Shown here one piece after another: positions 2,079-48,525 of a stretch of DNA of 53,896 bases (position 1 is the stretch's first letter; each line of letters starts with the position of its first letter). A model generated the notes under the pieces. It was not told the origin of the DNA. It ran no database searches and saw nothing but the letters and a program-made list of their open reading frames with translations. Position numbers and translations under genes: made by a program. Source of the DNA: a virus; IMG/VR virus record IMGVR_UViG_3300032282_004021, positions 1 to 53,896 of that record; one strand, given 5' to 3'.

Positions 2079-2083
2079 CCGAT

Positions 2084-3117: not shown

Positions 3118-3118
3118 T

Positions 3119-6944: not shown

Positions 6945-6950
6945 AAATTT

Positions 6951-7589: not shown

Positions 7590-7591
7590 TT

Positions 7592-7852: not shown

Positions 7853-7854
7853 GT

Positions 7855-8544: not shown

Positions 8545-8584
8545 AACTATCATTTTTGATAATTATTATTAAAGATTATACTTT

Positions 8585-10239: not shown

Positions 10240-10245
10240 CACAAT

Positions 10246-11070: not shown

Positions 11071-11072
11071 AA

Positions 11073-11804
11073 ATGGTTAATCAACTTAACATAAGTGAAG
11101 ATGTTGTAAAACAATATATAAAAGATAAGTTGGATGGTAAAAGCCCTACATCACCATTTCCTGCAGATTTTCAAGAACCTAATATACCTACAAAAGAAGA
11201 ATTTGACCAAAAAGTAAAAGCAAAAATACCAAGTGATGCTGAAATAGATAATTTAGTAGCTCAAAAAATAATGGGGAAAATTCCATTTGTACCAAATATA
11301 CATTTCATAGCACCAAGTCTTAAATTTAATTCAAAAACAAATATATTAATTGACCCGTTCATAAATTTTGCTAAAATACATTTATTAAGTAGAGGTGGGA
11401 CTATGATGGTAATGGCACAATACCCACCACCGGCACCACCTGCTCCGGGTATTTTAATGTGGCAAGGTTATAATGTTAGAAACGGGCCACCAATACCACC
11501 AATGCTTCCGAAGTTTGGTATACCAATGGGTTTAGGTAAATTTCTTAACCCAGAAAAGGGTGCTAAATTGCCGGAAGATGCGCAAAAAGAATTAGAAGAT
11601 AAATTAAATCCACCACAACCAATTACAATAGGAAACGTAACATTACTACCTACAACAGGTCTTATTTTGCCAACAACTCTATCAGGCGCGAGAATTGTTA
11701 ATATACCCTTACCAAGTAATACTAATACGATTTCTATAACAGGTGGACAAACTATAAACGATAAAACAAACGCACAAAACAATATTAATAACAATAAGTG
11801 CTAA
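11073..11804 (+). CDS. Proline-rich putative structural protein
   Basis: The 243-residue protein has a charged helical N-terminus and a central proline-rich part (PPPAPPAPGILMWQ, GPPIPPMLPKFGIPMG). The C-terminal half shows short beta-type segments (ITIGNVTLLPTTG, ARIVNIPLPSNTNTISITGG) and a final Asn-rich tail ending in Cys. The pattern is compatible with a spike-tip or baseplate accessory protein near the gp5-like needle, but no PAAR signature is visible. It belongs to the same transcription unit as the two genes before it. Confidence 0.55.
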   Translation: MVNQLNISEDVVKQYIKDKLDGKSPTSPFPADFQEPNIPTKEEFDQKVKAKIPSDAEIDNLVAQKIMGKIPFVPNIHFIAPSLKFNSKTNILIDPFINFAKIHLLSRGGTMMVMAQYPPPAPPAPGILMWQGYNVRNGPPIPPMLPKFGIPMGLGKFLNPEKGAKLPEDAQKELEDKLNPPQPITIGNVTLLPTTGLILPTTLSGARIVNIPLPSNTNTISITGGQTINDKTNAQNNINNNKC

Positions 11805-27464: not shown

Positions 27465-27875
27465 ATGTTCAAAAAAGTTACAAAAAAATCAGCCAAATGG
27501 GTAGCCCGTGCGAATGGGTTCAAATCTGGGCTTGAAGAAACAATATCCAATCAAATAGATAGCAAAGGAATTAAAGTAGAATATGAAACCGAAAAGGTAC
27601 CATATTCTATTCCTGCGTCCGAACACACATACCACCCCGATTTTCTACTTCCTAATGGAATATTTGTTGAAACGAAAGGTAGGTTTGTATTAACAGATAG
27701 AAAAAAACACCTTTTAGTAAAGCAACAGCATCCTGAATTAGATATTCGCTTTGTATTTACCAATTCCGGTAATAAAATCAATAAAAAATCCAAAACAACC
27801 TACGCCGATTGGTGTAAGAAATATGGGTTTAAATACGCAGATAAGCATATACCGGAGGATTGGTTTAACGAATAA
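27465..27875 (+). CDS. T7-type endonuclease I (Holliday junction resolvase)
   Basis: The 136-residue protein has the catalytic core of phage T7 endonuclease I. Glu24/Glu25 lie in SGLEETISNQ, Asp59 in TYHPDFLL, and Glu69 and Lys71 in the FVETKGRF segment, matching E20, D55, E65 and K67 of the T7 enzyme. The length is close to the T7 protein (149 residues). It would cut branched DNA and Holliday junctions before packaging, the job done in T4 by the unrelated gp49. Genes for a primase and the SbcD-SbcC fusion follow, so the region is a small DNA-metabolism island. Confidence 0.9.
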   Translation: MFKKVTKKSAKWVARANGFKSGLEETISNQIDSKGIKVEYETEKVPYSIPASEHTYHPDFLLPNGIFVETKGRFVLTDRKKHLLVKQQHPELDIRFVFTNSGNKINKKSKTTYADWCKKYGFKYADKHIPEDWFNE

Positions 27876-27879
27876 ATCG

Positions 27880-27911
27880 TTTGGAAATATCAAATATTTT
27901 TCGTATATTAC
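27880..27911 (+). promoter_or_regulatory. Host-type promoter (TTTG-N20-TATATTAC)
   Basis: TTTG at 27880-27883 and TATATTAC at 27904-27911 are separated by 20 bases, with the shared ATTTTTCG just before the -7 element. It lies right after the endonuclease stop and would drive the primase and the SbcD-SbcC genes. Confidence 0.65.
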
Positions 27912-27915
27912 ATAT

Positions 27916-28857
27916 GTGTTAAGTATAAATGATAAAAATAAGGTAGTAACTACCCTATACTCCGTATTGGGTACACATTCTACATTAAGAGGAAATGAAC
28001 TGGCTTTTTACTGCCCGTTTTGTCACCATCATAAACAAAAGTTACAGGTTAATACCGAAACTCAAAAGTGGCATTGTTGGACTTGTAATAGTGGCGGTAA
28101 AAAATTAACATCACTACTTCGTAAATTGGATGTTGATAAAAAAACAATCTCAATCATTCGTGAAATCTATGGTGATTCAAACTATAATCCGCAATCGGAT
28201 GATTCTGATGCTAAAGTATTTATAAATCTTCCAAAAGAATTTATATCATTAGCAGAAGAGCCAAACGGATTTAATCCTGAATATAAACAGGCTGTACACT
28301 ACTTAACTCAAAGAGGTATTGGATTAAAAGAAATTGTAAAATATTCCATTGGGTATTGTAAGGACGGAATTTACGCGAGGCGTATTATAGTTCCTTCTTA
28401 CAACTCTGATGGGTCTCTAAATTATTTTATTTCTCGTTCATATTACGCTGATGAAAAGATGAAATATAAAAACCCACCAATCAGTAAAAATATTATTTGT
28501 TTGGATTCACAAATTAATTGGAAAGAACCAATTATACTTTGTGAGGGAGTATTTGATGCTATTACAATTCGTAGAAACGCAATTCCATTACTCGGTAAAT
28601 TTCCATCAAAGAACTTAATTGAAAAGATATTTTTAAATGGTGTAACCGATATAATCATTTCATTGGATAACGATGCAGTCACCGAAGCACTACGGGCTTC
28701 CGAATGGTTAAGGAAGCAGGGTATTAATGTTAAGTTAATGATGATGCAAGATAAAGATGCAGCTGAAATGGGTTACGAAGCATTTTATGAAGAACTAAAG
28801 AAAACTAAAGAATTCTCTACGGAGGATTTATTATTAAATAAGATATTAAACTTATGA
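27916..28857 (+). CDS. DNA primase, gp61/DnaG-like
   Basis: The frame is open back into the endonuclease gene, but the promoter at 27880-27911 and the zinc-finger position favour a start near the GTG at 27916 (313 residues; T4 gp61 has 342). The start is the least certain part. A CHC2-type zinc finger is visible: CPFC (Cys33, Cys36) and CWTC (Cys54, Cys57). A TOPRIM core follows with CEGVFDAI (Glu210) and SLDNDA (Asp251, Asp253). The enzyme makes RNA primers for lagging-strand synthesis together with a replicative helicase, which is not in this window. It overlaps the next gene by four bases (ATGA). Confidence 0.85.
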   Translation: MLSINDKNKVVTTLYSVLGTHSTLRGNELAFYCPFCHHHKQKLQVNTETQKWHCWTCNSGGKKLTSLLRKLDVDKKTISIIREIYGDSNYNPQSDDSDAKVFINLPKEFISLAEEPNGFNPEYKQAVHYLTQRGIGLKEIVKYSIGYCKDGIYARRIIVPSYNSDGSLNYFISRSYYADEKMKYKNPPISKNIICLDSQINWKEPIILCEGVFDAITIRRNAIPLLGKFPSKNLIEKIFLNGVTDIIISLDNDAVTEALRASEWLRKQGINVKLMMMQDKDAAEMGYEAFYEELKKTKEFSTEDLLLNKILNL

Positions 28858-31800
28858 GCTTAAAAAGAATATTTCACATTGCTGACATACATATTCGTAA
28901 TGTAAAACGACACAAAGAATATAGAAAAGTATTCCAAAAGATGTTTGAGGAAATACGTAAATATGATACGAAAGATTCAATTATATATTTAGCAGGCGAT
29001 ATTGCTCATGCTAAATTGGAAATGAGTCCAGAATTAGTTAGTGAGATTGTTTGGTTATTTACAGAATGTGCTAAAACATGTCCTACAATTCTTATAGCAG
29101 GTAACCACGATTGCAATATGAATAATTCGGATAGACTAGATGTACTTACTCCGATTGTTACAGCACTTAATTTAGATAATTTTATTTACTTAAAAGATAC
29201 ACAAGTTCATTCTATTGGTGATGTTGATTTTGCTGTATTCAGTATTTTTGACAACAAAGATAACTGGCCTAAAGCCGATACTCTAACTGGCAAAACAAAA
29301 ATTGCTCTATTTCACGGACCAGTTGATAACTCACAAACCGATATAGGCTATGTAGTTAGTAGCCGACATTTTACAACGGATATATTCGATGGTTATGATT
29401 TGGCTCTATTAGGTGATATACATAAACGTCAGGAGATGATTAGTCCTCAAGGATGTAAAGTAGTTTATGCAGGCTCCCTCATACAGCAGAACTTTGGCGA
29501 AACACTTGATAAGCACGGATTTTTAGTTTGGGATGTGGAAACAAAGGAATATGAGGCGATTGATATTCAAAACGATTATGGTTACTATACATTAGATATA
29601 GATAATGGTGTTGTACCGATTGTAACCGATATGCCAAAACATCCACGTCTTCGTGTTCGTATATCCAATACCGATACTGCCGATACAAAGCGTGTAATGA
29701 CCGAAATTAAAATGAGATATGGTGTAGATGATTTTACTATCATTCGTACCGATTCTCTTTCTAAATTGAAAACCGGCAATCGTGCTAACAAATTGGATTT
29801 TGAAGATATATCAGATATTAATTATCAAAATTCACTTATCAATGATTATGTGACAAGAATGATGCCTTTCGTAACCGAAGAAGACCTTAATGGGTTAGAA
29901 TCCATAAATAGAGATATTAATAGCCGGATAACGCAAGATGAAATTCAAAGAAACATATTTTGGAAACCGATAAAGTTTACATTTGAAAATATGTTCAGCT
30001 ATGGTGAAGCTAATACTATTGATTTCTCAAAAGTAGGTGGGTTGATGGGGTTATTTGCACCAAACGCTACAGGTAAATCCTCACTATTTGATGCTATATC
30101 ATTTTGTCTTTATGATAAATGTAGTAGGGCATTCAAAGCACAAAATATTCTAAACAATCGTAAAACAACATTCTATTGTGAATTACATTTTCAAATAAAT
30201 GGAATGGATTATCATATTCGTAGAGAAGCAAAGACCATTAACAAAGGTAAGAATGTTAAGGTTGATGTACAATTTTGGAAAACGGAAGGTGGTATAGCAG
30301 TTTCTCTTAATGGAACGGAAAGACGTGATACCAACACTGCTATTGAGCAATATGTTGGTACTTACGAAGATTTCATTCTAACTGCTTTAAGTTTGCAAGG
30401 TAACAATGCACTATTCATTGATAAATCTCAATCGGAAAGGAAAGAACTTCTTGCTCAATTTATGGGATTGAATGTATTTGATAAATTATATGAAACAGCA
30501 ACCGAAGATATTAAAGAGGTTAGTGTTCTTGTTAAAAACTTTAAGCGTACCGATTTCACATCTGAACTTGCCGATAAAGGCACTGAATTGAAATCAAAAC
30601 GTAAAGAATTAAAAGAATTACAAACCCTATTAGATAGTGCAAATGATGTTAAGAATGGTGTATTAGAAAATATACTTACACTTACAAAAGAATTGGCACC
30701 AATTGATTCTACATTAGATTTGGGTAAGTTAGAAAAAACAAAAACCGATATTGAAGGTAACACTCTAAATATACAAATTGAAAAAGCAAATAAGGTAAAT
30801 AAAATTGGGGAATATAATAATCTTTTATCGGAAATATCACAATCCATAGAAGAAAAGAAAACTATAAATAATAAATCCATTGAAGTAGCAAAAATTGAAT
30901 GGGATGAATATAAGCGTAATATAAGTGATACCGAACATCAGATTGAATTATTAGAACAATCAATAAATTCAAATAGAGAAAAACTTTCACACTTAGAAGA
31001 ACATGAGTACGACCCAAATTGTAACTTTTGTATGAATAATGTATTTGTAAAAGATGCTATCGCTACAAAAGAATTAGTTGAAAAACAAGAAACAGAATTA
31101 GATGAATTGGGTAATAAACATCAATCTCTAATTCAACAAGCAAGTTATATCGCAGATGTTGAAGACCAGTGGGATGAGTTAGTAGAATTAAAATCCAAAT
31201 ATCAAAAAGCAATTATTATTAAAGAAAAAGCTGATGTTGAATTAAAAGGATTACATACAAAAGAAGAATTATACTCAACTCAATTAGAAGGTGTTAAAGC
31301 GGATATTAAAAAGTATAACGATAATGAAGATACTATTAAACGTAATAAACAAATACAATCGGATATTCAGGGACTAGAAACTACTAAAGCCGGAATAGAT
31401 ACAAATATAAAAGAATTAGGTAAGAGTATAACCACACTCAATGGTTCTATTGGTTCTCTGGAGTCGTTTATAGAGGGTATTAAGAATAAGATGATGGAAG
31501 TTAAGGACTTGGAGGAAAAAGGACGCCTATACACCTATTATATAGATGCGGTTAAGCGTGATGGTATTCCCTACGAACTAATTTCTAAAGCACTACCCGT
31601 AATTGAAACCGAAGTAAATAATATTCTTGCACAGGTTGTAGATTTTGGATGTGTAATGGAAGTTGATGGTAAATCTATTAATGCAAAGATTGTTTATGAT
31701 GACCAAGAATGGCCATTGGAAATGTGTAGTGGTATGGAAAAGTTTGTAAGTGGACTTGCTATCCGAGTTGCATTGATTAATATATGTAATCTACCTCGTC

Positions 31801-31997
31801 CAAACTTCCTTGTCATTGATGAAGGGTTTGGTACATTGGACTCTGATAATCTTTCATCTCTCTTTATGATGATGCAATATCTTAAAACTCAATTTGATTT
31901 TATTTGGGTTATTTCTCACTTGGAACAAATGCGTGATATTGTTGATGGACTTATTGAAATTAAGAAAATAGATGGATTTAGTAAGATTGATTTTTAA
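28854..31997 (+). CDS. Fused SbcD-SbcC (Mre11-Rad50; T4 gp47-gp46) recombination protein
   Basis: One continuous 1047-residue frame carries both subunits. The N-terminal 330 residues are the Mre11/SbcD nuclease: DIH (11-13), AGD (Asp49), GNHD (83-86), FHGPVD and GDIHKRQ. From about 375 the Rad50/SbcC ATPase begins: Walker A APNATGKSS (Lys408), a long coiled coil with the zinc hook CNFC (Cys723, Cys726), the signature MCSGMEKF (957 onward) and Walker B NFLVIDEGFG (Asp989, Glu990). T4 and most bacteria use two separate genes. The product resects DNA ends for recombination-dependent replication. The frame is clean with no stop or shift between the halves. Its 3' end overlaps a convergent minus-strand gene by 20 bases. 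Confidence 0.93.
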   Translation: MSLKRIFHIADIHIRNVKRHKEYRKVFQKMFEEIRKYDTKDSIIYLAGDIAHAKLEMSPELVSEIVWLFTECAKTCPTILIAGNHDCNMNNSDRLDVLTPIVTALNLDNFIYLKDTQVHSIGDVDFAVFSIFDNKDNWPKADTLTGKTKIALFHGPVDNSQTDIGYVVSSRHFTTDIFDGYDLALLGDIHKRQEMISPQGCKVVYAGSLIQQNFGETLDKHGFLVWDVETKEYEAIDIQNDYGYYTLDIDNGVVPIVTDMPKHPRLRVRISNTDTADTKRVMTEIKMRYGVDDFTIIRTDSLSKLKTGNRANKLDFEDISDINYQNSLINDYVTRMMPFVTEEDLNGLESINRDINSRITQDEIQRNIFWKPIKFTFENMFSYGEANTIDFSKVGGLMGLFAPNATGKSSLFDAISFCLYDKCSRAFKAQNILNNRKTTFYCELHFQINGMDYHIRREAKTINKGKNVKVDVQFWKTEGGIAVSLNGTERRDTNTAIEQYVGTYEDFILTALSLQGNNALFIDKSQSERKELLAQFMGLNVFDKLYETATEDIKEVSVLVKNFKRTDFTSELADKGTELKSKRKELKELQTLLDSANDVKNGVLENILTLTKELAPIDSTLDLGKLEKTKTDIEGNTLNIQIEKANKVNKIGEYNNLLSEISQSIEEKKTINNKSIEVAKIEWDEYKRNISDTEHQIELLEQSINSNREKLSHLEEHEYDPNCNFCMNNVFVKDAIATKELVEKQETELDELGNKHQSLIQQASYIADVEDQWDELVELKSKYQKAIIIKEKADVELKGLHTKEELYSTQLEGVKADIKKYNDNEDTIKRNKQIQSDIQGLETTKAGIDTNIKELGKSITTLNGSIGSLESFIEGIKNKMMEVKDLEEKGRLYTYYIDAVKRDGIPYELISKALPVIETEVNNILAQVVDFGCVMEVDGKSINAKIVYDDQEWPLEMCSGMEKFVSGLAIRVALINICNLPRPNFLVIDEGFGTLDSDNLSSLFMMMQYLKTQFDFIWVISHLEQMRDIVDGLIEIKKIDGFSKIDF

Positions 31998-35116: not shown

Positions 35117-36076
35117 ATGAAAAAGTTACAATATATTTGCGTTCAACCACGCCTTATTTACTATGCTTGGCAAGTCGAAGTAATGATAAATAATTTTATT
35201 CGTAATGGCATAAATCCAAACGATATTAATATACTTGTCGCGTGGAATCCAAATGATTTAACAAATTCAGAAGAAAACATAAAAGATTGGAAGAGGTTAT
35301 ATGAAAGATATTCCGATGTACGTTTTTTTGAATACGAAGATATAAGACAACTACCAATTCATTACATATCATCAGTACGGCCTAATATACTAAAACAACA
35401 TTTTCTAAAATATCCAGAATTATCAAATGAAGTATTTTTTTATCACGATTGTGATGTGGTATTTACTAAACCGATTGATTTTTCTGAATTACTAAATGAT
35501 ACTATTTGGTATTTAAGTGATACAAATTCATATATCAATTACGATTATATAAAATCAAAAGATTATGGAGTTTATGAAGAAATGTGTCGCATAGTCGGTA
35601 TAGATGAAGAATTACCAAAAAGATATAATGAAGCTTCAGGTGGCGCACAATATATAATGAAAAATTTAACATCGGAATATTGGGAAAAAGTTGAAAGAGA
35701 TAGTGAAGAATTATTCAAACAAATAACTGATAAAAATAATCGTATAAAACAACAAATACCATTCTATCATGAACTACAAATATGGTGTGCTGATATGTGG
35801 GCTGTACTTTGGAATGCTTGGTTATTTGGACATGAAACAAAAGTTGTTTCAGAATTAAACTTTTGTTGGGCTACCGATACAGTCGATATGTGGGATAAAT
35901 GTAATATATTTCATAACGCAGGCGTAACAAACGATTCAATTGGTTATTTTTATAAATCAAATTATATGAATAAACAACCATATAATATTAATATAAACAA
36001 TTTTGATGCAGCTTATTGTTCATACAAATATACTCAAGAGATTATAAAAACAATAGAGGTATCATGTCTAAAATAG
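35117..36076 (+). CDS. Glycosyltransferase-like protein with DXD motif
   Basis: The 319-residue protein has an N-terminal Rossmann-like pattern and the segment EVFFYHDCDVVFTKPIDF with a DXD motif (Asp111-Cys112-Asp113), typical of GT-A nucleotide-sugar transferases. Later segments (EASGGAQYIMKN, HELQIWCADMWAVLWNAW, FCWATDTVDMWDKCNIFHNA) supply the Trp-rich acceptor-side pattern of this group. The donor sugar is unknown. The gene starts seven bases after the poly-Thr structural protein and overlaps the second glycosyltransferase by 13 bases, so the three genes form one unit. Modification of the virion protein is the simplest idea; modification of DNA or host surface glycans is possible. Confidence 0.75.
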   Translation: MKKLQYICVQPRLIYYAWQVEVMINNFIRNGINPNDINILVAWNPNDLTNSEENIKDWKRLYERYSDVRFFEYEDIRQLPIHYISSVRPNILKQHFLKYPELSNEVFFYHDCDVVFTKPIDFSELLNDTIWYLSDTNSYINYDYIKSKDYGVYEEMCRIVGIDEELPKRYNEASGGAQYIMKNLTSEYWEKVERDSEELFKQITDKNNRIKQQIPFYHELQIWCADMWAVLWNAWLFGHETKVVSELNFCWATDTVDMWDKCNIFHNAGVTNDSIGYFYKSNYMNKQPYNININNFDAAYCSYKYTQEIIKTIEVSCLK

Positions 36077-36783
36077 GAATTACAATACTAGCAACTAATG
36101 CATACTTTGTTTTAGGAATACGATTCATAAAAAAATTTATGCATCATTATAAGGGTAATTCTGAAATAACTTTTTATTTCTTTTCAGATACCAATCCTTC
36201 CGATTATTTATCAGATAACATAAATGTAAAATACTACCACACAATACATAATAATTGGGTAGAAGGTACTAATGATAAATTTAATAGTATATTATCATTG
36301 AAAGAAGAAGATATTGATTACCTATACTATTTTGATGCTGATACAAATATAACTAAAGACTTTACAGAAGAATGGTTTATAGGTGATTTAGTAGGTGGTG
36401 AACACTATGGTAATCGTACTTGGTTAGCAAACGGTGCAGGGTTTGACCGGTTTGTGAAATCTAAAGCTTATGTACCAATAGATAGTCCTCTACCATACAC
36501 ATATCATTATGGAGCATTCTTTGGTGGTAAATGTGATACAGTTATAGATTTTTGTAAAACCCTTAAAGAATGGCAAATAGAAGATAAAAAAATACCTTAT
36601 GAGCCAGTTGTTAATGATGAAAGTTATATTAATGCATATTTTCATTACAATCCTCCTACCACCATACTTTGTGAAAAATTTGCATTTGATATAAGTGATA
36701 AAGGTGGTATAGGAGAAACCAGAGATACTAATCTGAATATTGATTATTACAAAAAAATATTATTAGATGGAAATATTTGGTAA
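36064..36783 (+). CDS. GT6-family (ABO/alpha-1,3-Gal type) glycosyltransferase
   Basis: The ATG at 36064 (MSKIGITILATNAYF) is preferred to an upstream in-frame start that would lie deep in the previous gene. The 239-residue protein carries GT6 features: YYFDADTNI with Asp91-Ala92-Asp93, HYGAFFGG (148-155) and VNDESYINAYFHYNPPTT, corresponding to the acceptor and catalytic loops of the ABO/alpha-1,3-galactosyltransferase family. Vertebrate GT6 enzymes use a DXD, most bacterial ones an NXN; this phage protein has DXD, as reported for the cyanophage P-SSM2 member. The reaction is a retaining transfer of Gal or GalNAc in an alpha-1,3 link; donor and acceptor are not known. It overlaps the previous glycosyltransferase gene by 13 bases. 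Confidence 0.8.
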   Translation: MSKIGITILATNAYFVLGIRFIKKFMHHYKGNSEITFYFFSDTNPSDYLSDNINVKYYHTIHNNWVEGTNDKFNSILSLKEEDIDYLYYFDADTNITKDFTEEWFIGDLVGGEHYGNRTWLANGAGFDRFVKSKAYVPIDSPLPYTYHYGAFFGGKCDTVIDFCKTLKEWQIEDKKIPYEPVVNDESYINAYFHYNPPTTILCEKFAFDISDKGGIGETRDTNLNIDYYKKILLDGNIW

Positions 36784-36936: not shown

Positions 36937-39900
36937 ATGAATTTAATAAATGAGGTAGATAAACCAACTGTAAAAAAGATAATTGTAATTTATTCTGGTA
37001 GATTTCAACCATTTCATAGAGGACACTATGCATCTTATCAAAAATTGGTATCAAAATTTGGTAAAGATAATGTATATATTGGAACTTCAAACGATACAAG
37101 CGGCCCCAAATCTCCTTTTAACTTTAAAGAAAAGAAGCAGGTAGCTACCACAATGTTTGGTATTCCTTCTAACCGATTCGTTCAAATCCAAAACCCATAT
37201 CAGCCAATTGAAATACTTAAAAAATTTGATGGTAAAACTACTCAATATATTGCAGCAGTTGGAGAAAAAGACGCAACACGACTTCATGGAAAATATTTTA
37301 AACCATACAAAGGCAAGCCAGGATATGGGTACGATGAAATAGGTTATGTATATGCGGTACCAGCTGAACCAAACCCAATATCTGGAACCGATGTTCGTAA
37401 AGGGCTTGGTAGTGGTAATGCGGAAACAAAAAAGAAATTCTTTTTAAAAGCATATCCTAAAATGGATAAAGATATATTCAAAATGATTACTACTAAAATA
37501 GGTAAACTAAATGAAGCCGGACCACTTCAGGGAGCAGGTATGGCAGTTGATTTCGGACCGAATCCACTATCACATAAAAAAGATGATGAGAAGGATGGTG
37601 TAACCGAAGATGGATTTCCAGGTGGAGTATTTACGGGATTAGTTTCACCCGGTGGATATATTAATGGAGCTCCACAACCAAAAGATGTAGCAAAGTTAAG
37701 TAAAAAAATTCATAAAAAAGATAATACTAAAACTAATAAGGATTATGTATATGATCCAATATCTGAAATAATTCACAAAATATTATTTGAGGAAGAAGCT
37801 CCAAATACTGTAATGGATAAAGAAATATCTTATAAAGCAACGGATGGTAGTGAAAAAAAGATTACAGTCCGAAATGCATTAAGATTATCAAAAGACCACC
37901 CTGCACATATACAAGCAAAAAAATTAACCGGAAAAGAAGAACCGAAAGCTGAAAAGCCAAAAGAAAAAGGTGAAAAAGATTCTAAAAAGGGAGCAAAAGA
38001 AATACCAGCCGAAAACCCAAAAGCTACTGAGCCAAAAGGGCCAGCTCCTATTAAACTAAGTGGTGCAGAACTAAAATCTGATGCTGAAAAATCTCCTGAA
38101 GAAAAACATCAAGAAAAATCCAAAATGGAATTGGATTCAAAAATGAAAGAGGTTTCACCGGAAGATGTAAAAGCCGGTAAAGAAATGAATGATACTAATT
38201 CGCCGGAAAGACAGGAGATGAAGAAAAACTCACAAAACTGGTTATCTAAAATGGGTAACAAAATGTGGGAAGGTGCAAAGAAGTGGGGTAATGAGAAAAA
38301 AGAAATGTTAGCCGGAACCGGAGCAGCTATAAAAACACTTGCATCAGGCGGAAAAGTAGGTAGCATAAAAGGAACAGATGGCAAATGGGTACACCATACG
38401 GATTTTAAAATCAAAAGTGAAGAACTAGATACTAAAACGGGTAAAAATAAAACTGTATGGAAAGATAAATCTGATTTAACACCCGAACAACAATCGTTAA
38501 AGAAAAAATCAGAACATGAAGACCACAAACAAAGACACGCACTAAAACATACCGCAAAGGATGTTGGATTATTAGCACTTTCAATGGTAGGTGCCGGTGC
38601 TATTGGTGGAGCAATAGGTGGTATGGTTACACATGGTGCAGCCGGAATAGTACATGGTGCCGCACATGGTATTACATCAATAATTGGTCATGGTGCTGCG
38701 GGGTTTGGTACTCATGTGGCCAAAGACATAGCAAAACATTCTGCATTTGAAGCAATGGGACTTGGTGGACATCATGCCGCCGGAGCAACAGCGGCAATGG
38801 GTGCAATCGGACATTTATTAGAAGGTGATGATGAACAAGAAGGACAATCACATGAAAAATTTGTAGATACACTTCTTAAAAAGACTATCCAAATAATGAT
38901 GGATAAGACCCTTAGTGATGAACAAATGTTAAGAGCGGTAGAAACATATCAAAAAGAAAGTGGTGATACTAATCTAAAAAGTTTAGCTAAAACAATAGAT
39001 GAATCAGCAATATCTAAATCAAAAGTTCAAAATATTGCAGACTTTGTAGGATATGCTACTAAGAAATTAAAACTCAAAGATAAACCAAAAATTAAACTCA
39101 TACTTGGACAAGATTATTCAAAACAAAATTCTACATTAGGTGGATATAGTCCAGATACAAAAGATATAGTTGTTGTTATACCAAATCGTATGACAGCTGA
39201 TATATGTCGTACCATTGGACATGAATTGGTACATCGTAAGCAAGATGAATTGGGGTTAATAAAAAATAGTAATACAGCAGGTACTACTGGTTCACCAATA
39301 GAAAATCAGGCAAATTCAGTAGCAGGAATACTACTTCGTGATTATGGCAAAATAAATAAAGAAATATATTCCGAAGGTAAAATTTTATTAGATGAAACAA
39401 GCTACATGTCTACAGATGGCGATGACCAACCGAATGGTGCATGGCTTCCAAAGGGCGCACAAAGAGTACTTGGAGCAGATGATGGTGTAAACAAATCGGA
39501 TTATTGGTTTCATAACGGAGGATATATTCAATTAGAATTTCCTGAAGCTGATAAAATATTAGGAGATGAAGATGAGAATCAGATATATGTTCAATATATA
39601 ACTAAAAATGTACCCCGTCAATCAGGCCCAAAGACTGTATTTAATAAAAACCCTGAAAAAGCAAAAATAATTTCTGAGATGGGTAAAGGTGATATTCATT
39701 TCAAAAATATATTTCAACATTGGAGAGATGGCGATGCTAAATTGAAACAAAAAATAGCAAATTTAGTTACCGGAAATAAATACGCAAAATCAAAAGAAAT
39801 TGTAAAAAATCTACTTGATTTGGATATAACCGATATTGAATGGGTTGAAGATGAAATTGGTATTACTCTGTTTGAAACTATAAAAAAAGTAGGAAGTAAA

Positions 39901-41796
39901 TATGTGGTTTATCCAAAAAAAGGTGGAAAGAGATTAGGAACACATGATTCATTAGTATCGGCAAAGAAGCAACTTTCAGCAATTGAAATAAACAAAGAGG
40001 ATATAAATGTTAATGTAAATCCAGGTGATGTAGTTTTAATGGGCAAATTCAAAAACAAACGTGTAAAAATAAAAGATATAGGTGAAGACCCACACGGTAT
40101 GCCAACTATAAATGGTAAACAAGCAACAACATTCCGAAAGGTTAATGAAGTATCACTTTTAGATAAATGGATTGATGATAATATTGAAACATACTTAAAA
40201 GAAGGCAATTTTGTAGCATTATCATTTGGTGAAGACCAATCATTTCGTTCACCATATCTGAAAAAATGGGAAGAATGGGATATGTGTGGAAAAGCATTAG
40301 CCGATATAATTGGATTTGAAGTTTATGGACATACTTCGGAGTCATTTAAAGAAAAGGGTGAAGGAAAAGTTCTACCAACAAATAATCCAACGGAAGAAAA
40401 CGGACCAGGTAAAAGATGGATGCACCCCTCAAAACCAAAAGAGTACGCAGAAGATAAAAAAGTAAAATGGGAAATGTACCCATTCAATTCCAGACCAGCT
40501 GCATATCAACCACCACCTGATATTGGAACGCAAGTTGATGTTTTCAAATACGATAAACCATCAGTAATAAAAGAGAATATTCAAGAATGGAATCAATTAC
40601 TATTAGAAGGTGGCGCATATGGACATATGTCACATCCATTTGATGATATGGATTTAACATTTGGACAACTTAAAGATATTATTACAAGGGCATTAGATGG
40701 TAATTTGGGTGTAGTAAGAGAAAAAACCGATGGACAGGCATTAGCAATAAGTTGGAAAAAAGGAAGATTAATTGCAGCACGTAATAAAGGGCATTTGGAA
40801 AACGCAGGAGCAAACGCAATGGGGATAAATGATGTAGCATCTAAATTTCAGGGACGTGGTGGACTTACTGATGCATATAATTACGCAATGCAAGACCTTA
40901 ACGCAGCAATAAGTGGTTTATCAAAGGGTCAACGTGATAAAATATTCAATGAAGGTAAATGCTTTATGAATATAGAAGTAATCTGGCCAACTTCTGTAAA
41001 TGTAATTCCTTATGGACAAGCTCTATTAATATTTCATAATACAACTTGTTACGATGAAAAGGGAACGGCAATAGGAGCTGACCAATCCGCAGCTAGAACA
41101 TTAGCAGGAATGATAAAACAAGTAAACGCAGATGTACAAAGTAAATATACAATTCAAGGCCCCCCAATAACTTCAATTCCAAAAAATGAGGATTTAAGTT
41201 CATTAAAGGGTGGGTATCTTTCAAAACTTTCAAAACTACAAAACGAATTTGGTTGTAATGATTCCGATACTATGGCAGTATATCATCAGCTTTGGTGGGA
41301 AAATTTTATAAATAAAAAAGCACCTGCAAAAGTTGACAAAATTACAAAAGATGCACTTATAAGAAGATGGGCATTCGGAGATAAATCTTTTAGATTAAAT
41401 ACTATATCAAACCCTGAATTACAAAAATGGGCAATTCAAAATGATAAAGTAAATGTTCAGAAACAACAAAAAGATAATATGCGTCCATTTGAAGAAATCT
41501 TTTTAGGAGTTGGTGCAGATGTACTTTCATTTGTAAGTTCGGTACTAACTGTACACCCTGATAAGGCTATTCGTAATATGAAGGATAGATTAAAATCAAC
41601 AGCAGATCAAGTTCGTAAAGCTGGGAGCCCTGCTCAAATACAAAAATTAAAATCAGAATTAGAAAGATTAAATAATTTAGGCGGAGTGGATAAGATAGTA
41701 GCATCCGAAGGTTTAGTATTCTTTTATGGTGGAAAGACTTACAAGTTGACCGGAACTTTTGCACCTCTAAATAAAATTATAAACATATTTTGGTAA
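36937..41796 (+). CDS. 1619-aa multidomain protein: nucleotidyltransferase + metalloprotease-like + ligase-like domains
   Basis: Residues 14-180 form a cytidylyltransferase/NMNAT-type domain: YSGRFQPFHRGH (19-30) and ISGTDVRK (148-155). A charged, Pro/Lys-rich linker follows (about 330-530). Then comes an Ala/Gly/His-rich stretch (about 538-630, GAGAIGGAIGGMVTHGAAG) that reads like a glycine-zipper membrane segment. Residues 700-800 contain TIGHELVHRKQ with HELVH at 762-766, a zinc-metallopeptidase motif. A short VYPKKGGKRLGTH element is near 985. The C-terminal 400 residues contain REKTDGQALAIS with Lys1263, resembling the adenylated Lys of ATP-dependent ligases. It sits before the packaging genes and may be an injected virion protein. 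No stop or frameshift interrupts it. Active-site assignments come from motifs only. Confidence 0.75.
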   Translation: MNLINEVDKPTVKKIIVIYSGRFQPFHRGHYASYQKLVSKFGKDNVYIGTSNDTSGPKSPFNFKEKKQVATTMFGIPSNRFVQIQNPYQPIEILKKFDGKTTQYIAAVGEKDATRLHGKYFKPYKGKPGYGYDEIGYVYAVPAEPNPISGTDVRKGLGSGNAETKKKFFLKAYPKMDKDIFKMITTKIGKLNEAGPLQGAGMAVDFGPNPLSHKKDDEKDGVTEDGFPGGVFTGLVSPGGYINGAPQPKDVAKLSKKIHKKDNTKTNKDYVYDPISEIIHKILFEEEAPNTVMDKEISYKATDGSEKKITVRNALRLSKDHPAHIQAKKLTGKEEPKAEKPKEKGEKDSKKGAKEIPAENPKATEPKGPAPIKLSGAELKSDAEKSPEEKHQEKSKMELDSKMKEVSPEDVKAGKEMNDTNSPERQEMKKNSQNWLSKMGNKMWEGAKKWGNEKKEMLAGTGAAIKTLASGGKVGSIKGTDGKWVHHTDFKIKSEELDTKTGKNKTVWKDKSDLTPEQQSLKKKSEHEDHKQRHALKHTAKDVGLLALSMVGAGAIGGAIGGMVTHGAAGIVHGAAHGITSIIGHGAAGFGTHVAKDIAKHSAFEAMGLGGHHAAGATAAMGAIGHLLEGDDEQEGQSHEKFVDTLLKKTIQIMMDKTLSDEQMLRAVETYQKESGDTNLKSLAKTIDESAISKSKVQNIADFVGYATKKLKLKDKPKIKLILGQDYSKQNSTLGGYSPDTKDIVVVIPNRMTADICRTIGHELVHRKQDELGLIKNSNTAGTTGSPIENQANSVAGILLRDYGKINKEIYSEGKILLDETSYMSTDGDDQPNGAWLPKGAQRVLGADDGVNKSDYWFHNGGYIQLEFPEADKILGDEDENQIYVQYITKNVPRQSGPKTVFNKNPEKAKIISEMGKGDIHFKNIFQHWRDGDAKLKQKIANLVTGNKYAKSKEIVKNLLDLDITDIEWVEDEIGITLFETIKKVGSKYVVYPKKGGKRLGTHDSLVSAKKQLSAIEINKEDINVNVNPGDVVLMGKFKNKRVKIKDIGEDPHGMPTINGKQATTFRKVNEVSLLDKWIDDNIETYLKEGNFVALSFGEDQSFRSPYLKKWEEWDMCGKALADIIGFEVYGHTSESFKEKGEGKVLPTNNPTEENGPGKRWMHPSKPKEYAEDKKVKWEMYPFNSRPAAYQPPPDIGTQVDVFKYDKPSVIKENIQEWNQLLLEGGAYGHMSHPFDDMDLTFGQLKDIITRALDGNLGVVREKTDGQALAISWKKGRLIAARNKGHLENAGANAMGINDVASKFQGRGGLTDAYNYAMQDLNAAISGLSKGQRDKIFNEGKCFMNIEVIWPTSVNVIPYGQALLIFHNTTCYDEKGTAIGADQSAARTLAGMIKQVNADVQSKYTIQGPPITSIPKNEDLSSLKGGYLSKLSKLQNEFGCNDSDTMAVYHQLWWENFINKKAPAKVDKITKDALIRRWAFGDKSFRLNTISNPELQKWAIQNDKVNVQKQQKDNMRPFEEIFLGVGADVLSFVSSVLTVHPDKAIRNMKDRLKSTADQVRKAGSPAQIQKLKSELERLNNLGGVDKIVASEGLVFFYGGKTYKLTGTFAPLNKIINIFW

Positions 41797-41836: not shown

Positions 41837-42643
41837 ATGATAATCTATAAGTGTACAAATAAAAAAACAGGAAAGGTTTATATAGGGCAAACTATAAAAT
41901 CTTTAGATAAAAGAATCACACAACACCATAAGGTTGCTAAAAAATCAAAAAGTAAATTTCATAAAGCATTAATTTCATATGGTTTTGAAAATTTTGATTG
42001 GGATATTCTAAAATCAGCCACATCTAAACAAGAATTAAATGAATTAGAAATTCATTATATAAATGAATATGATTCAATAAATTCAGGATACAATATGATA
42101 GAAGGTGGAACCGGAGGGTATAATGAATTTGCTGTTATAAAAAATAAATTAAAAATCGGCAAAAGTTGGGAAGAGATATATACACCAACTGGTTTAGAAA
42201 AAATGATTTTAAGTAAAGGAAAAAACTCAAAATTTTTAATAGACTATAATAAAAATTTATCAAAAGAAGAAAAAATAAGAAGAGCAAAAATAGGCAATGC
42301 AGCCAGAACACTTAATGGGTATAAACATTCGGAAACAACAAAACAAAAAATTTCAAATTCAAATAAGGGTAAAATAGTAACAATAGAACAACGAAAAAAA
42401 ATATCAGAAAAAACAAAAGAAGCAATGCAAAATGTAGATAAGGAATTGCTTGGAAAAAAATCAGTTGAAGCTCGTAAGCCATATTGGGATAAAAAACATA
42501 AAGAACAAAAGGAAAAAATAATAGAATTAAAAAACAAAAAAATCCCAATTAAAAAAATAATAGCAGAATTAAACATATCAACACCTACATATTATAAATT
42601 GTGGAATGATATAAAATGTAATATATATTTAAAACAGTTATAA
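41837..42643 (+). CDS. GIY-YIG homing endonuclease with NUMOD-type repeats
   Basis: The 268-residue protein starts with a GIY-YIG nuclease domain: IIYKCTNKKTGKVYIGQT (IIY at 2-4, YIG at 15-17), an Arg at 26, a Glu in ELNELEIHYI and an Asn in GYNMIEGG. A DNA-binding part follows with NUMOD3-like segments (GYKHSETTKQKISNSNKGK; TIEQRKKISEKTKEAM). A C-terminal helix-turn-helix comes last (NKKIPIKKIIAELNISTPTY). This is the layout of free-standing Seg-type endonucleases of T4-like phages. The gene is exceptionally A-rich even for this genome, a sign of separate history. It lies between the 1619-residue gene and the packaging genes, whose intron-less homologues are likely targets. Confidence 0.92.
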   Translation: MIIYKCTNKKTGKVYIGQTIKSLDKRITQHHKVAKKSKSKFHKALISYGFENFDWDILKSATSKQELNELEIHYINEYDSINSGYNMIEGGTGGYNEFAVIKNKLKIGKSWEEIYTPTGLEKMILSKGKNSKFLIDYNKNLSKEEKIRRAKIGNAARTLNGYKHSETTKQKISNSNKGKIVTIEQRKKISEKTKEAMQNVDKELLGKKSVEARKPYWDKKHKEQKEKIIELKNKKIPIKKIIAELNISTPTYYKLWNDIKCNIYLKQL

Positions 42644-44000: not shown

Positions 44001-45608
44001 ATGTCAGTACAAGGACAACCAAAAAAGACACTAAAAGAAATTATAGCAGATGAATATCGTAAATGCGGCCAAGACCCTATTTACTTTATGAAAAAATACT
44101 GCATCATTCAACACCCGACTCGTGGTAAAATACCATTTCACCTATACCCATTCCAAGAACAATGTCTAACCGATTTTAAAGATAATCGTTTTAATATTAT
44201 TCTTAAATCACGTCAACTTGGTCTTTCAACACTTTCCGCAGGATATATTCTTTGGAAAATGTTATTCAATCAGGATTACAATGCACTCGTTATTGCAACA
44301 AAAGTAACGGTAGCAAAGAACTTGGTTGAGAAAGTAAGAGTAATGCATGACCTTCTTCCTATATGGTTAAGAGATGGAGGTAATAGTTCAGTTGAAGATA
44401 ACAAATTATCACTCAAATTAAAGAATGGTTCACAATGTAAAGCAATCGCATCTTCACCTGATGCCGGACGTTCGGAGGCACTATCACTATTGGTTGTGGA
44501 TGAAGCCGCATTCATTAGAGATATTGATGAAATCTGGCTATCAGCACAATCAACACTATCTACGGGTGGTGCGGCAATCGTATTATCAACTCCAAATGGT
44601 GTGGGTAATTGGTTTCATAAAATGTGGGTTGATGGTGAAAGTGGAGCAAATGGTTTTCACAATATTAAATTACATTGGACTATTCATCCAGAAAGAAATC
44701 AAGAATGGAGAGATGAACAAAGTAGAATTTTAGGAATAAAAGGTGCAGCGCAAGAATGTGATTGTGATTTTGTGAGTTCAGGTGATACCGTAATAGACCC
44801 ACAATTATTATTGTGGTATAAAGATACCTATGTAATGGACCCGGTTGAAAAACGTGGGTTTGATGGAAACTTATGGGTATGGGAACATCCAAATTACAAT
44901 CGCCAATATATGGTTGTAGCGGACGTTGCACGTGGCGATGGTTCGGATTATTCAACAGCACAGGTAATTGATATTGAAGATAGTTCACAAGTAGCAGAAT
45001 ACAAAGGAAAAATTGAAACAAAAGATTTTGGAAACTTTCTTGTAGCATTATCAACAGAATATAATAACGCATTACTTGTTGTGGAAAATTCAAATGTTGG
45101 TTGGGCATCAATACAGCAAATTATAGACAGAGGGTATGGTAATCTATTCTATATGAGTAATGACCTTAAATATATAGATGTTGAACGCCAAATGACTAAT
45201 AAACATTATAGAGATGAACGTCAACTTGTAGCTGGATTTTCTACCACATCAAAGACCAGACCATTAATTATATCTTCATTGGATTCATACATACAAAATA
45301 AAGACATTCTAATTCGTTCAGTAAGACTCATAGATGAGCTATTCACATTCATTTGGAATGGTGGTAGAGCAGAAGCTATGAAGGGTTACAATGATGACCT
45401 TACGATGGCATTAGCAATTGGACTGTGGGTAAGAAACACAGCATTACGATTAAAACAAGAGGGAATTGACTTAACAAAAAATATGTTAAATGCTGCTCAT
45501 ATATCTAAACACGATGGAGTTTATACTCAAAATTCTTTTCAACAAAATCCATACGAAATGAAAACTCAAAATGGTGATACGGAAAATCTACATTGGTTAT
45601 TAGGTTAA
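44001..45608 (+). CDS. Terminase large subunit, gp17-like
   Basis: The 535-residue protein has a full ATPase-nuclease layout. The Walker A-like segment is KSRQLGLST (69-77), with Leu75 in place of the usual Lys. Walker B is LLVVDEAAF (Asp167, Glu168), followed by a LSTPNGVGNWF coupling motif. The RNase-H-type nuclease shows VVADVARGDGSDYS (Asp308), LLVVENSNVG (Glu362) and YNDDLTMAL (Asp465, Asp466). The protein pumps and cuts DNA during head filling at the portal encoded two genes downstream. Variant Walker A motifs of RQLGxST form occur in other phage terminases, so activity is expected. A weak terminator-like GGTTAAACC with T-run follows the stop. Confidence 0.93.
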   Translation: MSVQGQPKKTLKEIIADEYRKCGQDPIYFMKKYCIIQHPTRGKIPFHLYPFQEQCLTDFKDNRFNIILKSRQLGLSTLSAGYILWKMLFNQDYNALVIATKVTVAKNLVEKVRVMHDLLPIWLRDGGNSSVEDNKLSLKLKNGSQCKAIASSPDAGRSEALSLLVVDEAAFIRDIDEIWLSAQSTLSTGGAAIVLSTPNGVGNWFHKMWVDGESGANGFHNIKLHWTIHPERNQEWRDEQSRILGIKGAAQECDCDFVSSGDTVIDPQLLLWYKDTYVMDPVEKRGFDGNLWVWEHPNYNRQYMVVADVARGDGSDYSTAQVIDIEDSSQVAEYKGKIETKDFGNFLVALSTEYNNALLVVENSNVGWASIQQIIDRGYGNLFYMSNDLKYIDVERQMTNKHYRDERQLVAGFSTTSKTRPLIISSLDSYIQNKDILIRSVRLIDELFTFIWNGGRAEAMKGYNDDLTMALAIGLWVRNTALRLKQEGIDLTKNMLNAAHISKHDGVYTQNSFQQNPYEMKTQNGDTENLHWLLG

Positions 45609-45630: not shown

Positions 45631-45647
45631 GATTGAAAACTACAATA

Positions 45648-46751
45648 ATGCAAGAAGATTTAAATAAGTGGTTTAAAGAAAAGTGGGTAAATATAGGAAA
45701 AAAAGTAGATGGTAAGCACCCGCCATGCGGAACTTCTGGTGAAAAAAGTGGATATGCGAAATGTGTTCCTGCAGCAAAAGCAGCTGGAATGAGTAAGAAA
45801 GAAAAAGAAAGTGCAACTAGAAGAAAACGTGCAGCACAAAATAAAGCAGATAGGGGTGGAAAAAGTAGTAGTGGCCAAGGTAAAACACCGATATATGTTT
45901 CTACTGATAAAAAAAATGAAGATTGGAGTCAAAAATATAAAAATAGTATAGATTGTAATAATCCAAAAGGTTTCTCTCAAAAAGCACATTGCCAAGGAAA
46001 GAAAAAAAATGAAACTATGAACATTGAAGAAAAATTAAACCTCTTTTTAGAGAAAAATTGTCCTACCGATAAAGCCAAATGGGCAGCATCTAAATCAGCA
46101 GCTAAATCTAAATTTGATGTATATCCCTCCGCATATGCAAATGGATGGGCAGCCAAAAATTATAAAGGTAAAGGTGGTGGCTGGAGAAACTGTAGTGAAT
46201 CTGTAAATGAAATTGAAAATTGTTCAGAATGTTGGGATGATTGCGAAGGAGAACGTGATGAAAATGGTAATTGTTGGGAAGCTGAACCACCACGATATCC
46301 AAGCGATTCAATGGCATATAGGGAAATGAATGAAGAAGCGCCTATGAACCCTGCAGGAGGACAACCTGGTGGATTCTATGGAGATACATATGGAATGGAA
46401 GAAGATGATGAGGAATATGATGTAGAAAACGAAGATGATGTTAAGGAGTTCATCAAATTTATGAGGGAATATAATCAAACCTTATCTGAAGCAACTTGTC
46501 CGTGTCTATTGGAATCAGAGTATCAGGGACGAACTGTAAAGTTAGGTAAACCAATGCAAGGTGATGTTAAAAAGTTTAAAGTGTATGTTAAGAATGATAA
46601 AGGTAATGTGGTTAAAGTAAACTTCGGTGACCCTAATATGAGAATCCATAAATCAAATCCAAAAAGACGTAAATCATTCAGAGCAAGACATAATTGTGAT
46701 AATCCAGGACCTCGTTATAAAGCAAGATATTGGAGTTGTAGAAAATGGTAA
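45648..46751 (+). CDS. Cys-rich modular phage protein (DUF5872-like segment)
   Basis: I start at the ATG at 45648; an upstream TTG (45633) lies almost inside the promoter motif. The 367-residue protein is a chain of short Cys-containing modules. It begins with DLNKWFKEKWVNIGKKVDGK and KHPPCGTSGEKSGYAKCVPA followed by a Lys/Ala/Arg-rich stretch (the pattern I know as DUF5872). Next come GFSQKAHCQGKKKN, CPTDKAKWAASKSAAKSKFD with WAAKNYKGKGGGWR, and an acidic linker. The end is KSFRARHNCDNPGPRYKARY. The modules occur separately in many T4-type phage genomes. Lying between terminase and portal suggests a head or packaging role. Basic modules alternate with acidic parts, consistent with DNA or protein contacts in the head. 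Confidence 0.65.
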   Translation: MQEDLNKWFKEKWVNIGKKVDGKHPPCGTSGEKSGYAKCVPAAKAAGMSKKEKESATRRKRAAQNKADRGGKSSSGQGKTPIYVSTDKKNEDWSQKYKNSIDCNNPKGFSQKAHCQGKKKNETMNIEEKLNLFLEKNCPTDKAKWAASKSAAKSKFDVYPSAYANGWAAKNYKGKGGGWRNCSESVNEIENCSECWDDCEGERDENGNCWEAEPPRYPSDSMAYREMNEEAPMNPAGGQPGGFYGDTYGMEEDDEEYDVENEDDVKEFIKFMREYNQTLSEATCPCLLESEYQGRTVKLGKPMQGDVKKFKVYVKNDKGNVVKVNFGDPNMRIHKSNPKRRKSFRARHNCDNPGPRYKARYWSCRKW

Positions 46752-46803: not shown

Positions 46804-48525
46804 ATGGCAGAAAAAACAATATTTAGTAGGTTACAAAAACTATTTTCAACTAATACAATAGTTCGCAAAACATCCAAAGGAACAAAAGTAATTGATACAG
46901 ATGAGTATCAAAATATGACTACGAATCTGGTTGACAGGTTTATGAAATTAAAAGTTACAAACTATGCATCTGGCCAGATAGATTCATCACTTGCATATCA
47001 GCAAGTTCGTATTGACCTTTTTAGAGATTACGATTCAATGGACCAAGACCCAATTATATCATCAGCACTTGATATTTACGCAGATGAATGTACTGCAAGA
47101 AATGAATTTGGAAGTGTTCTTAAAATACATCATGAAGATGCCAATATAAAACAAATACTTGAAAACTTATTTTTTGATATTCTTAATGTTGAATTTAATC
47201 TTTGGCCTTGGACAAGAAATCTTGTTAAATATGGTGACCTATTTCTTCAACTTGAAATAGCAGAAGATGCGGGTATAGTAAATATATTTCCATATTCTTC
47301 ATATGAAATAACACGTGTTGAACAATTTGATCCGGCAAATCCACAAAGAGTTAAATTTGTATATGCACCATACCAAAACCCATTGGGAGCATATGGTATG
47401 AGTTCTAAAAAAGATTTTGAAAATTATGAAATAGCACACTTCCGATTAAATTCAGATTCAAACTTTTTACCATATGGTAAATCAATGATTGAAGGAATTA
47501 GACGTATTTGGAAGCAATTAATGTTGATGGAAGATGCTATGTTGATACATCGTATAATGAGAGCACCTGAAAAAAGAATATTCAAAATTGATGTAGGTAA
47601 TATCCCACCAACAGAAGTGGATAATTACATGCAGAAAATCATTAACAATTCTAAGAAAACTCCATTCGTTGATGAAAAAACTGGTGAGTATAACTTAAAA
47701 TACAATATTCAAAACCTTATTGAAGATTTTTATCTACCTGTTCGTGGTAGTGATACCGGAACTTCAATAGATACTATAAAGGGATTGGAATATAACATGG
47801 TAGAAGATATTAACTATCTAAAAGGAAAGTTAATGGCCGGACTTAAAATACCAAAAGCATATTTGGGTTATGAAGAAGATATAAATGGTAAAGCCACTCT
47901 TGCAGCTCAAGATGTTCGTTTTGCAAAAACTATTGAAAGAGTACAAAGAGTAATAGTTTCAGAATTTACAAAAATAGCAATCATTCACTTATACGCTCAA
48001 GGAATACAAGATGAACGATTAACTGATTTTTCTCTTGAATTAACACTTCCTTCAAAAATATATGAGCAAGAGCAGGTTGAATTATATACATCAAAAGTAG
48101 GATTAATTCAACAAATGCAACAAACAAAAATGTTCTCAAAAGAATGGATGTATGAAGCAATTATGAAAATGGCAAAAGATGAGCAGGATGAACAAACTCT
48201 TTCTGTATTAGAAGATACTAAACAAGCATTCAGATTACAATCAATAGAAACGCAAGGCGTAGACCCAGCAGCTGCACAACCCGAACAACCAACTAATGTA
48301 GAAGAGGAATTACAAAGATTAAAAACTGAATTAGAAGAAGATGGTAAAGTGGGCAGACCAAAAGATCCAGTAAGATATGGTAAAGATGACCACCCTATGG
48401 GACGTGACCCACTTGGTATAAAAACACTTAAACAAAAAGAAGGTTCTGTAAAATACAAACCAAGAAATAATTACCAAGAAATATTCAAAGATATGGATGG
48501 TAATAAAAAGAAACTTCTTAGTTAA
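46804..48525 (+). CDS. Portal vertex protein, gp20-like
   Basis: The 573-residue protein matches gp20-type portals in length (T4: 524) and pattern. Segments include RIDLFRDYDSMDQDPIISSA, LDIYADECT, NLWPWTRNLVKYGDLFLQLE, FLPYGKSMIEGIRRIWKQLM, EDAMLIHRIMRAPEKRIFKI, YNLKYNIQNLIEDFYLPVRG and LMAGLKIPKAYLGYEEDINGKA. The last 80 residues are an acidic, Gln-rich tail. The portal ring is the DNA entry gate, the docking site for terminase and neck, and the start of head assembly. Together with the terminase gene two positions upstream, it places this region in the head/packaging module. Confidence 0.93.
   Translation: MAEKTIFSRLQKLFSTNTIVRKTSKGTKVIDTDEYQNMTTNLVDRFMKLKVTNYASGQIDSSLAYQQVRIDLFRDYDSMDQDPIISSALDIYADECTARNEFGSVLKIHHEDANIKQILENLFFDILNVEFNLWPWTRNLVKYGDLFLQLEIAEDAGIVNIFPYSSYEITRVEQFDPANPQRVKFVYAPYQNPLGAYGMSSKKDFENYEIAHFRLNSDSNFLPYGKSMIEGIRRIWKQLMLMEDAMLIHRIMRAPEKRIFKIDVGNIPPTEVDNYMQKIINNSKKTPFVDEKTGEYNLKYNIQNLIEDFYLPVRGSDTGTSIDTIKGLEYNMVEDINYLKGKLMAGLKIPKAYLGYEEDINGKATLAAQDVRFAKTIERVQRVIVSEFTKIAIIHLYAQGIQDERLTDFSLELTLPSKIYEQEQVELYTSKVGLIQQMQQTKMFSKEWMYEAIMKMAKDEQDEQTLSVLEDTKQAFRLQSIETQGVDPAAAQPEQPTNVEEELQRLKTELEEDGKVGRPKDPVRYGKDDHPMGRDPLGIKTLKQKEGSVKYKPRNNYQEIFKDMDGNKKKLLS

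Follow-up and report, generated by a model that had tools for sequence, protein, structure and literature searches.

A phage polyprotein family joining an NMNAT-like domain to an RNA-ligase-like domain, and its possible role as a packaged RNA repair kit

Introduction

Several described phage systems resemble parts of the locus reported here. Polyvalent proteins (Iyer et al. 2017, PMC5512222) are chains that hold several enzyme domains, with a recurrent zincin, exchangeable domains and a portal-terminase setting; their 2H domains are reported by these authors never to occur together with RNA ligases. In T4, the protease gp21 cleaves after L/I-X-E, and capsid targeting sequences stand at the N-termini of the internal proteins (PMC9026906). 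The RNA ligases of known phage RNA repair are accompanied by functions such as CCA addition, 5' phosphorylation of RNA and trimming at the 3' end (compare PMC7824862, PMC9503650). Phage NAD salvage is also known, and every NadM phage reported has NadV (PMC9503650).

Here we describe a gene of an uncultured bacterial virus. It lies in a 53,896-base IMG/VR virus record (the whole stretch is called the window below) that is probably a fragment. An original prediction, made from this DNA alone, had proposed that the gene joins nucleotidyltransferase, HELVH protease-like and ligase-like domains. We find that the gene is real and marks an unrecognised family of RNA-ligase-like polyproteins. The family is a variant of polyvalent proteins and T4-type internal proteins and no new category. 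Its chains carry at least two unrelated effector domains that are exchangeable, in portal-terminase phages. The passages of PMC5512222 that were searched contain no core of NMNAT and RNA-ligase-like domains combined with modules of the CCA-adding or PNK-like kind, and a literature search for an NMNAT-RNA ligase fusion returned nothing.

Results

The proposal that all parts lie in one chain was borne out, since the 1619-aa frame is open throughout (Table 1). All quoted motifs were recovered, with GRFQPFHRGH starting at residue 21, ISGTDVR at 148, HELVH at 762 and KTDG with its lysine at 1263, and so was the Ala/Gly/His-rich stretch. These motifs are not chance occurrences: there are full-length relatives (L002, L003 and L007, with ~61-79% identity to the window protein over the whole length), the N- and C-terminal signatures are invariant or nearly so, and HExxH and a downstream Glu are invariant. 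The predicted place ahead of the packaging genes was likewise confirmed. In the window, terminase lies ~2.2 kb and the portal gene ~5 kb downstream, and of 124 testable loci 122 have the gene for the large terminase subunit downstream of the family gene in the same orientation, with a median gap of 1350 bases. We found no tRNA genes in the window.

Table 1 Features of the polyprotein gene and its packaging context in the window. A slash marks a predicted cut.
Feature	Position	Residues	Strand	Basis
Whole polyprotein gene	36937..41796	1619 aa	+	Single open frame, ATG start
Putative N-terminal leader MNLINE/, [LI]xE end, capsid-targeting-like	36937..36954		+	N-termini of relatives
NMNAT-like (NadM-type) adenylyltransferase domain, HRGH and ISGTDVR	36979..37491	15-185	+	Pfam, PHROG, PDB profile matches
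[LI]xE motif LNE/A just after the NTase domain	37507..37515	191-193	+	Motif scan
Ala/Gly/His-rich low-complexity segment	38554..38856	about 540-640	+	Read from translation
Zincin metallopeptidase-like domain	39004..39396	690-820	+	AF2 core, fold neighbours; [LI]xE flanks at 689, 820
HELVH motif	39220..39234	762-766	+	Translation
YPKKGGKRLGTH module, phrog_3684 (unknown function)	39865..40002	977-1022	+	PHROG match
GDVVLMGKFKNK...TINGKQATTFR module	40003..40134		+	Common to 89 family members
[LI]xE motif LLE/GG immediately before the ligase-like domain	40600..40608	1222-1224	+	Kept in relatives
RNA-ligase-like covalent nucleotidyltransferase domain	40609..41793	1225-1619	+	AF2, VIA, invariant motifs
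Predicted nucleotidyl-accepting Lys1263, motif I (EKTDG)	40723..40725	1263	+	Motif alignment
Terminase large subunit (context)	44001..45608		+	phrog_2, E 3.8e-47
Portal protein (context)	46804..48525		+	phrog_213, E 4e-66

Other genes of the window were noted in passing. Directly 3' of the polyprotein gene lies a GIY-YIG homing endonuclease gene (41837-42643; phrog_314, phrog_7168). The two genes 5' of it (35117-36783) match phrog_4417, of unknown function, and a glycosyltransferase (phrog_3317), and are unlike packaging genes. Further upstream (27751-31997), a primase is followed by a 1047-aa frame that fuses SbcD-like and SbcC-like parts (gp47/gp46 type). A C-terminal signature, K(S)FRARHNC...YWSC, is common to proteins encoded at 45633-46751 of the window and in two relatives (L193, 10417-10818; L090, 6175-6630); the proteins of these phages that carry it are encoded near terminase or the NTase.

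We next turn to the C-terminal domain, which, going by its modelled fold, is a member of the covalent nucleotidyltransferase superfamily outside Rnl1 and Rnl2, with predicted activity. The superfamily motifs I (KxDG), Ia (R), III (E), IV (EGxV) and V (K) occur in order, and the corresponding residues K1263, R1282, E1347, E1591 and K1603 are invariant in 165/165 relatives. The domain was modelled with AlphaFold2 from 36 homologues (pLDDT 84). RNA ligases took the top places in a Foldseek search of the PDB, where the E-values were weak (7.7e-3 at best; prob 0.91). The VIA comparison returned RNA/tRNA ligases or close relatives in all of rows 1-35 (Z 8.7 to 6.2), among them Naegleria RNA ligase (8.7 over 188 residues), T4 Rnl1 (8.0), the trypanosome editing ligase (7.8), fungal Trl1 (7.4) and T4 Rnl2 (7.3). 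The proposed ligase-like C-terminus with a nucleotidyl-lysine thus holds at the level of fold.

The domain shares its fold (VIA Z 7-9) and the motif order I, Ia, III, IV, V with T4 Rnl1 and Rnl2, Naegleria RNA ligase and Trl1, but differs from them in sequence and layout. No Pfam or PHROG family covers residues 1225-1619, no RNA ligase model of Pfam or PHROGs matches them at E up to 10, and two ligase-domain profiles searched against PDB sequences found no ligase significantly. Matches of such a profile to eS6 (PDB, E 0.003) were judged to be chance. Rnl1 and Rnl2 have a Lys-x-Lys in motif V and a helical domain C-terminal to it. Both traits are absent here: motif V reads YKLTG, the chain stops 16 aa after it, and an insertion of ~200 helical residues separates motif III from motif IV, which departs from known RNA ligases. 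Because of this insertion and the early chain end, we call the domain RNA-ligase-like, not Rnl1 or Rnl2. A likeness between an HxxHPFDD...LTF stretch and LigA's NMN-binding domain Ia was considered and set aside, as the stretch lies at an unsuitable distance from motif I.

The nucleotidyltransferase guess for the N-terminus also proved sound and could be narrowed to the NMNAT type by profile. The domain matches Pfam CTP_transf_like (PF01467) above cut-off (E 9.5e-5, aa 18-155) and phrog_395, 'cytidyltransferase' (E 1e-9). When a 29-sequence profile was searched against all PDB sequences, archaeal NMN adenylyltransferases ranked first; E-values were 1.8e-9 for MJ0541, 8.6e-8 for the M. thermautotrophicus NMNAT and 1.6e-7 for the NMNAT 2qjt, and NMNATs outranked most NaMNATs as well as the phosphopantetheine adenylyltransferases. 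NMNATs are therefore the closest PDB family, and the NadM-type signatures GRxQPFHxGH and ISxTxxR are present. Across 89 sequences, GRFQP, the second His of HxGH and SGTxxR are near-universal. The window protein keeps HRGH; xxHH (GPHH) replaces HxGH in 27/91 NTase domains, and with the first catalytic His absent in ~30% of relatives, this clade may have moved away from the original reaction. The family resembles NadM-type enzymes in its GRFQPFHxGH and ISGTxxR signatures and in profile E-values of about 1e-9 to 1e-7, but differs in the fusion to a ligase-like domain and in mostly lacking a NadV partner.

These matches raise the question of NAD supply, in which the NMNAT-like domain would rebuild NAD+ against host NADase defences and the ligase-like domain would be secondary. 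The NMNAT profile matches would suit such a role, as would the Nudix domain of some relatives, Nudix being a known NMNAT partner. We nevertheless consider it improbable, given that NAMPT/NadV, which NAD salvage would normally require (PMC9503650), was found in 1/10 records (several of them fragments), that the first catalytic His is lost in so many relatives, and that the ligase-like domain is better conserved and nearly always present. The earlier suggestion of a counter to NAD depletion was accordingly not upheld. The proposed RNA-end chemistry agrees with the fold of RNA ligases and with the CCA-adding and PNK-like modules that relatives carry, as described below. Of all parts of the polyprotein we understand the NMNAT-like domain least, and any role given to it here is putative.

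In the middle of the chain, HExxH and the downstream Glu are invariant in a 28-sequence alignment. The AlphaFold2 model of this region has an overall pLDDT of 67 with a confident core (model residues about 50-173), in which a helix and three strands are followed by the helix of HExxH and by one more helix that holds the invariant Glu. Its fold neighbours are Wss1, selecase, IrrE and ArdC, so that the metallopeptidase-like guess for HELVH survives by fold; a zincin profile found no match among PDB sequences. The zincin occurs mainly in the window's neighbourhood of the family. A stand-alone zincin of the window type was seen in S-SRM01 (L011, 5863-6261), directly 5' of a cytidyltransferase gene with a leader, MKNFHQFITEA. 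The remaining middle includes low-complexity sequence and two short modules also found in other family members (Table 1). Taken together, we regard the three domain identities (NMNAT-type, zincin and RNA-ligase-like) as well supported and hold them with high confidence.

Scans of viral contigs confirmed 580/600 candidate stretches, which puts the family at 580 IMG/VR stretches at least. A cellular origin was rejected: 84,980 bacterial and archaeal genomes gave only 3 matches, all on MAG contigs of 4-13 kb. The NTase lies upstream in the same chain in 80/86 complete frames with the ligase domain. Among the six unfused frames, two are one frame split by an in-frame TGA (L092), one has its NTase encoded by the next gene and not fused to the ligase-like domain (L010), and one probably reflects a frameshift (L059). 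In L092 (IMGVR_UViG_3300022821_000315), in-frame TGA breaks the frames of the ligase-like polyprotein, terminase and portal (2-3661, 6554-8146, 8164-9654). Reading TGA as Trp (table 4) makes these frames single, and this phage therefore probably uses TGA as a recoded stop. In L010, the gene after the stand-alone ligase-like gene (9247-11217) encodes a C-terminal HIGH NTase, and its N-terminal half has an ENLDG motif and resembles a second domain of the ligase type that lacks the lysine.

Exchange among relatives affects the middle or the part ahead of the NTase. Microcystis phage Mel-JY01 has a compact form (WWT39297.1) with the N- and C-terminal domains only and a site IAE/GG ahead of its ligase domain. 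The existence of this form suggests that NTase and ligase-like domain form the core and that the middle is optional. A PNK-like P-loop kinase is present in 24 family frames, a CCA-adding nucleotidyltransferase in 3 (phmmer against PDB, E 1e-31), RNase T in 2 and Nudix in 1, and HD is also among the modules; one relative (L066) has both zincin and CCA-adding parts. The best PDB matches of the kinase profile are weak (4mde and 4gp6, E about 1e-3); we take both to be the polynucleotide kinase domain of Clostridium thermocellum Pnkp. Some members also match the polynucleotide kinase phrog_505. Ordinary Rnl-type RNA ligases are encoded by several of these phages as well, so a ligase in the polyprotein would be an additional one, perhaps acting early.

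An inert head or scaffold protein that took up degenerate enzyme domains would also sit in the head gene cluster and could have a low-complexity middle. Such a protein is hard to reconcile with ligase catalytic residues that are invariant in every relative, zincin residues kept in 28/28 aligned sequences and accessory modules that are other enzymes, and we consider it highly unlikely.

To characterize how the chain might be processed, we examined the distribution of [LI]xE motifs. Such a motif lies within the first 25 aa in 29/32 distinct N-termini, compared to 8.4% of sequence windows inside domains. Relative to the expectation from composition in 34 proteins, [LI]xE was enriched 3.4x at N-termini and 1.6x in linkers and fell to 0.5x in the ligase domain; the control motifs [LI]xD, [LI]xK, [LI]xQ, [VF]xE and AxE did not show this pattern. 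Immediately before the ligase domain, [LI]xE/G is found in 135/168 relatives with a freely varying middle residue, and one clade has LLLM/GG at this boundary instead. The window protein has 14 [LI]xE motifs, none inside the three domains and each domain bracketed (6; 193; 689 and 820; 1224); taken alone, this absence from the domains is marginal (joint P 0.02). Peptidase_S77, the gp21-type protease, was found in 5/5 relatives' records searched, and gp23-type major capsid proteins in relatives' records carry an [LI]xE/A site. With sites at the N-terminus and between domains and a depletion in the ligase domain, the protein looks like a head-packaged polyprotein that is cut during maturation.

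Judging from these sequence patterns, we consider cleavage and packaging by the prohead route probable. The proposed injected virion enzyme fits this prediction, with a gene upstream of terminase and portal, a capsid-targeting-like N-terminus, sites of the prohead-protease type and the S77 protease of relatives. T4 IPI-III and Alt are alike in having a leader ending in [LI]xE, an S77 protease in related genomes and a head gene neighbourhood; they differ in being small single-function proteins or, in the case of Alt, one enzyme, whereas the window encodes a polyprotein with several predicted internal cuts. With respect to polyvalent proteins, the prohead protease motif accounts for the predicted processing of the window protein better than the zincin alone would.

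A related cassette in cultured phages bears on how far packaging might extend. By tblastn, 469 phage records have DUF6267 and 529 have the NTase, most of them from T4-like cyanophages, and phrog_455 covers both. In most regions examined, the two genes are direct neighbours or have one small gene between them; exceptions are S-CRM01, where the next genes are different, and Xanthomonas XaC1, where they lie about 3.5 kb apart. In pelagiphage HTVC008M (AGE60461-AGE60464), genes whose ends touch or overlap stand in a row: DUF6267, with a KWDG motif, then a small gene, the kinase known from our family and a HIGH NTase. The cassette (PF19782; phrog_455, phrog_395) thus pairs a KxDG covalent-nucleotidyltransferase-like protein with a HIGH-type NTase as the window family does, and DUF6267 has the same motif order, HxxH..D-KxDG-NxIxY-H-EGxV-K-FxxxN. 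It differs in its separate genes, its replication neighbourhood and in GRFNPPTxGH versus GRFQPFHxGH in the window.

We compared the two groups further. Membership of the window domain in DUF6267 was rejected: hhalign gave a probability under 1% in several modes, which is not significant, and we therefore claim shared motif order alone. A regular expression for this order, built after both families had been seen, matched 130/174 family frames, 7/8 DUF6267 rows and no non-family frame among 5236. The window-type domain was found in 0/8 DUF6267 phages searched, and PF19782 was above cut-off in none of the records with the window-type domain; since the two were not found together, they may replace one another. 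A literature search on DUF6267 returned nothing.

The cyanophage cassette sets limits to the packaging claim. Here, DUF6267 and the HIGH NTase adjoin primase-helicase and MazG among replication genes, DUF6267 often begins MAKNTHLEHLED, without a leader, and several cassette proteins are leaderless. For this reason packaging may not be general, and we limit the claim to the window's family. The same observations, together with the clade that lacks [LI]xE before the ligase domain, could mean that these enzymes act only in the infected cell, unpackaged, and that the linker motifs reflect flexible-linker composition or are cut incidentally. This account seems somewhat unlikely for the window's family, where the [LI]xE excess peaks at N-termini and is not shared by five control motifs, where the site ahead of the ligase domain varies in its middle residue but not in [LI] and E, and where the gene so consistently lies next to terminase.

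Discussion

The reading that we prefer is a polyprotein of enzymes made for delivery with the phage genome. An N-terminal leader would send it into the prohead, where cuts after [LI]xE by a T4-gp21-type prohead protease would free three separate enzymes: the NMNAT-type adenylyltransferase, the zincin metallopeptidase and the RNA-ligase-like one. Once injected, or within the infected cell, the ligase domain would become adenylylated at Lys1263, transfer this AMP to the 5' terminus of a broken RNA and seal the break; the likeliest substrate would be tRNA that a host defence has cut. In relatives, kinase, CCA-adding or RNase T modules would make RNA ends ready or rebuild them, and the NMNAT-like domain may handle a nucleotide cofactor. 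We infer each of these steps, from cleavage, packaging and injection to RNA repair and the NMNAT-like role.

RNA repair as the purpose of the polyprotein is plausible and falls slightly short of an even call. The combined reading of an RNA-repair polyprotein that is packaged in the head and cut by the prohead protease is a computational prediction; because its steps are not independent, we hold it at most tentatively, a little below RNA repair by itself. Several observations weigh against it: the LLLM/GG clade, the marginal statistics of the window protein, the leaderless cyanophage cassette, the other RNA ligases of these phages, the weak Foldseek E-values, the helical insertion and the xxHH form of the NTase. 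A more specific variant, a virion-borne RNA repair kit activated by the prohead protease, that enters with the DNA, in which the NMNAT-like domain supplies an NAD+-using RNA ligase by turning the NMN set free in every adenylylation into NAD+ again and tRNAs are mended before phage gene expression, is very improbable.

These data point to a large phage enzyme family of an RNA-ligase-like fold that Pfam and PHROGs miss and that is nearly always tied to an NMNAT-like domain. The family links to unexplained DUF6267/cytidyltransferase genes in hundreds of cultured marine T4-like phages. If packaging holds true, RNA repair would join restriction inhibitors and ADP-ribosyltransferases as phage activities carried in the head. 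In conclusion, relatives of the window protein swap in other RNA-mending parts, which suggests that the viruses of this family may bring along a ready-made kit for RNA repair.
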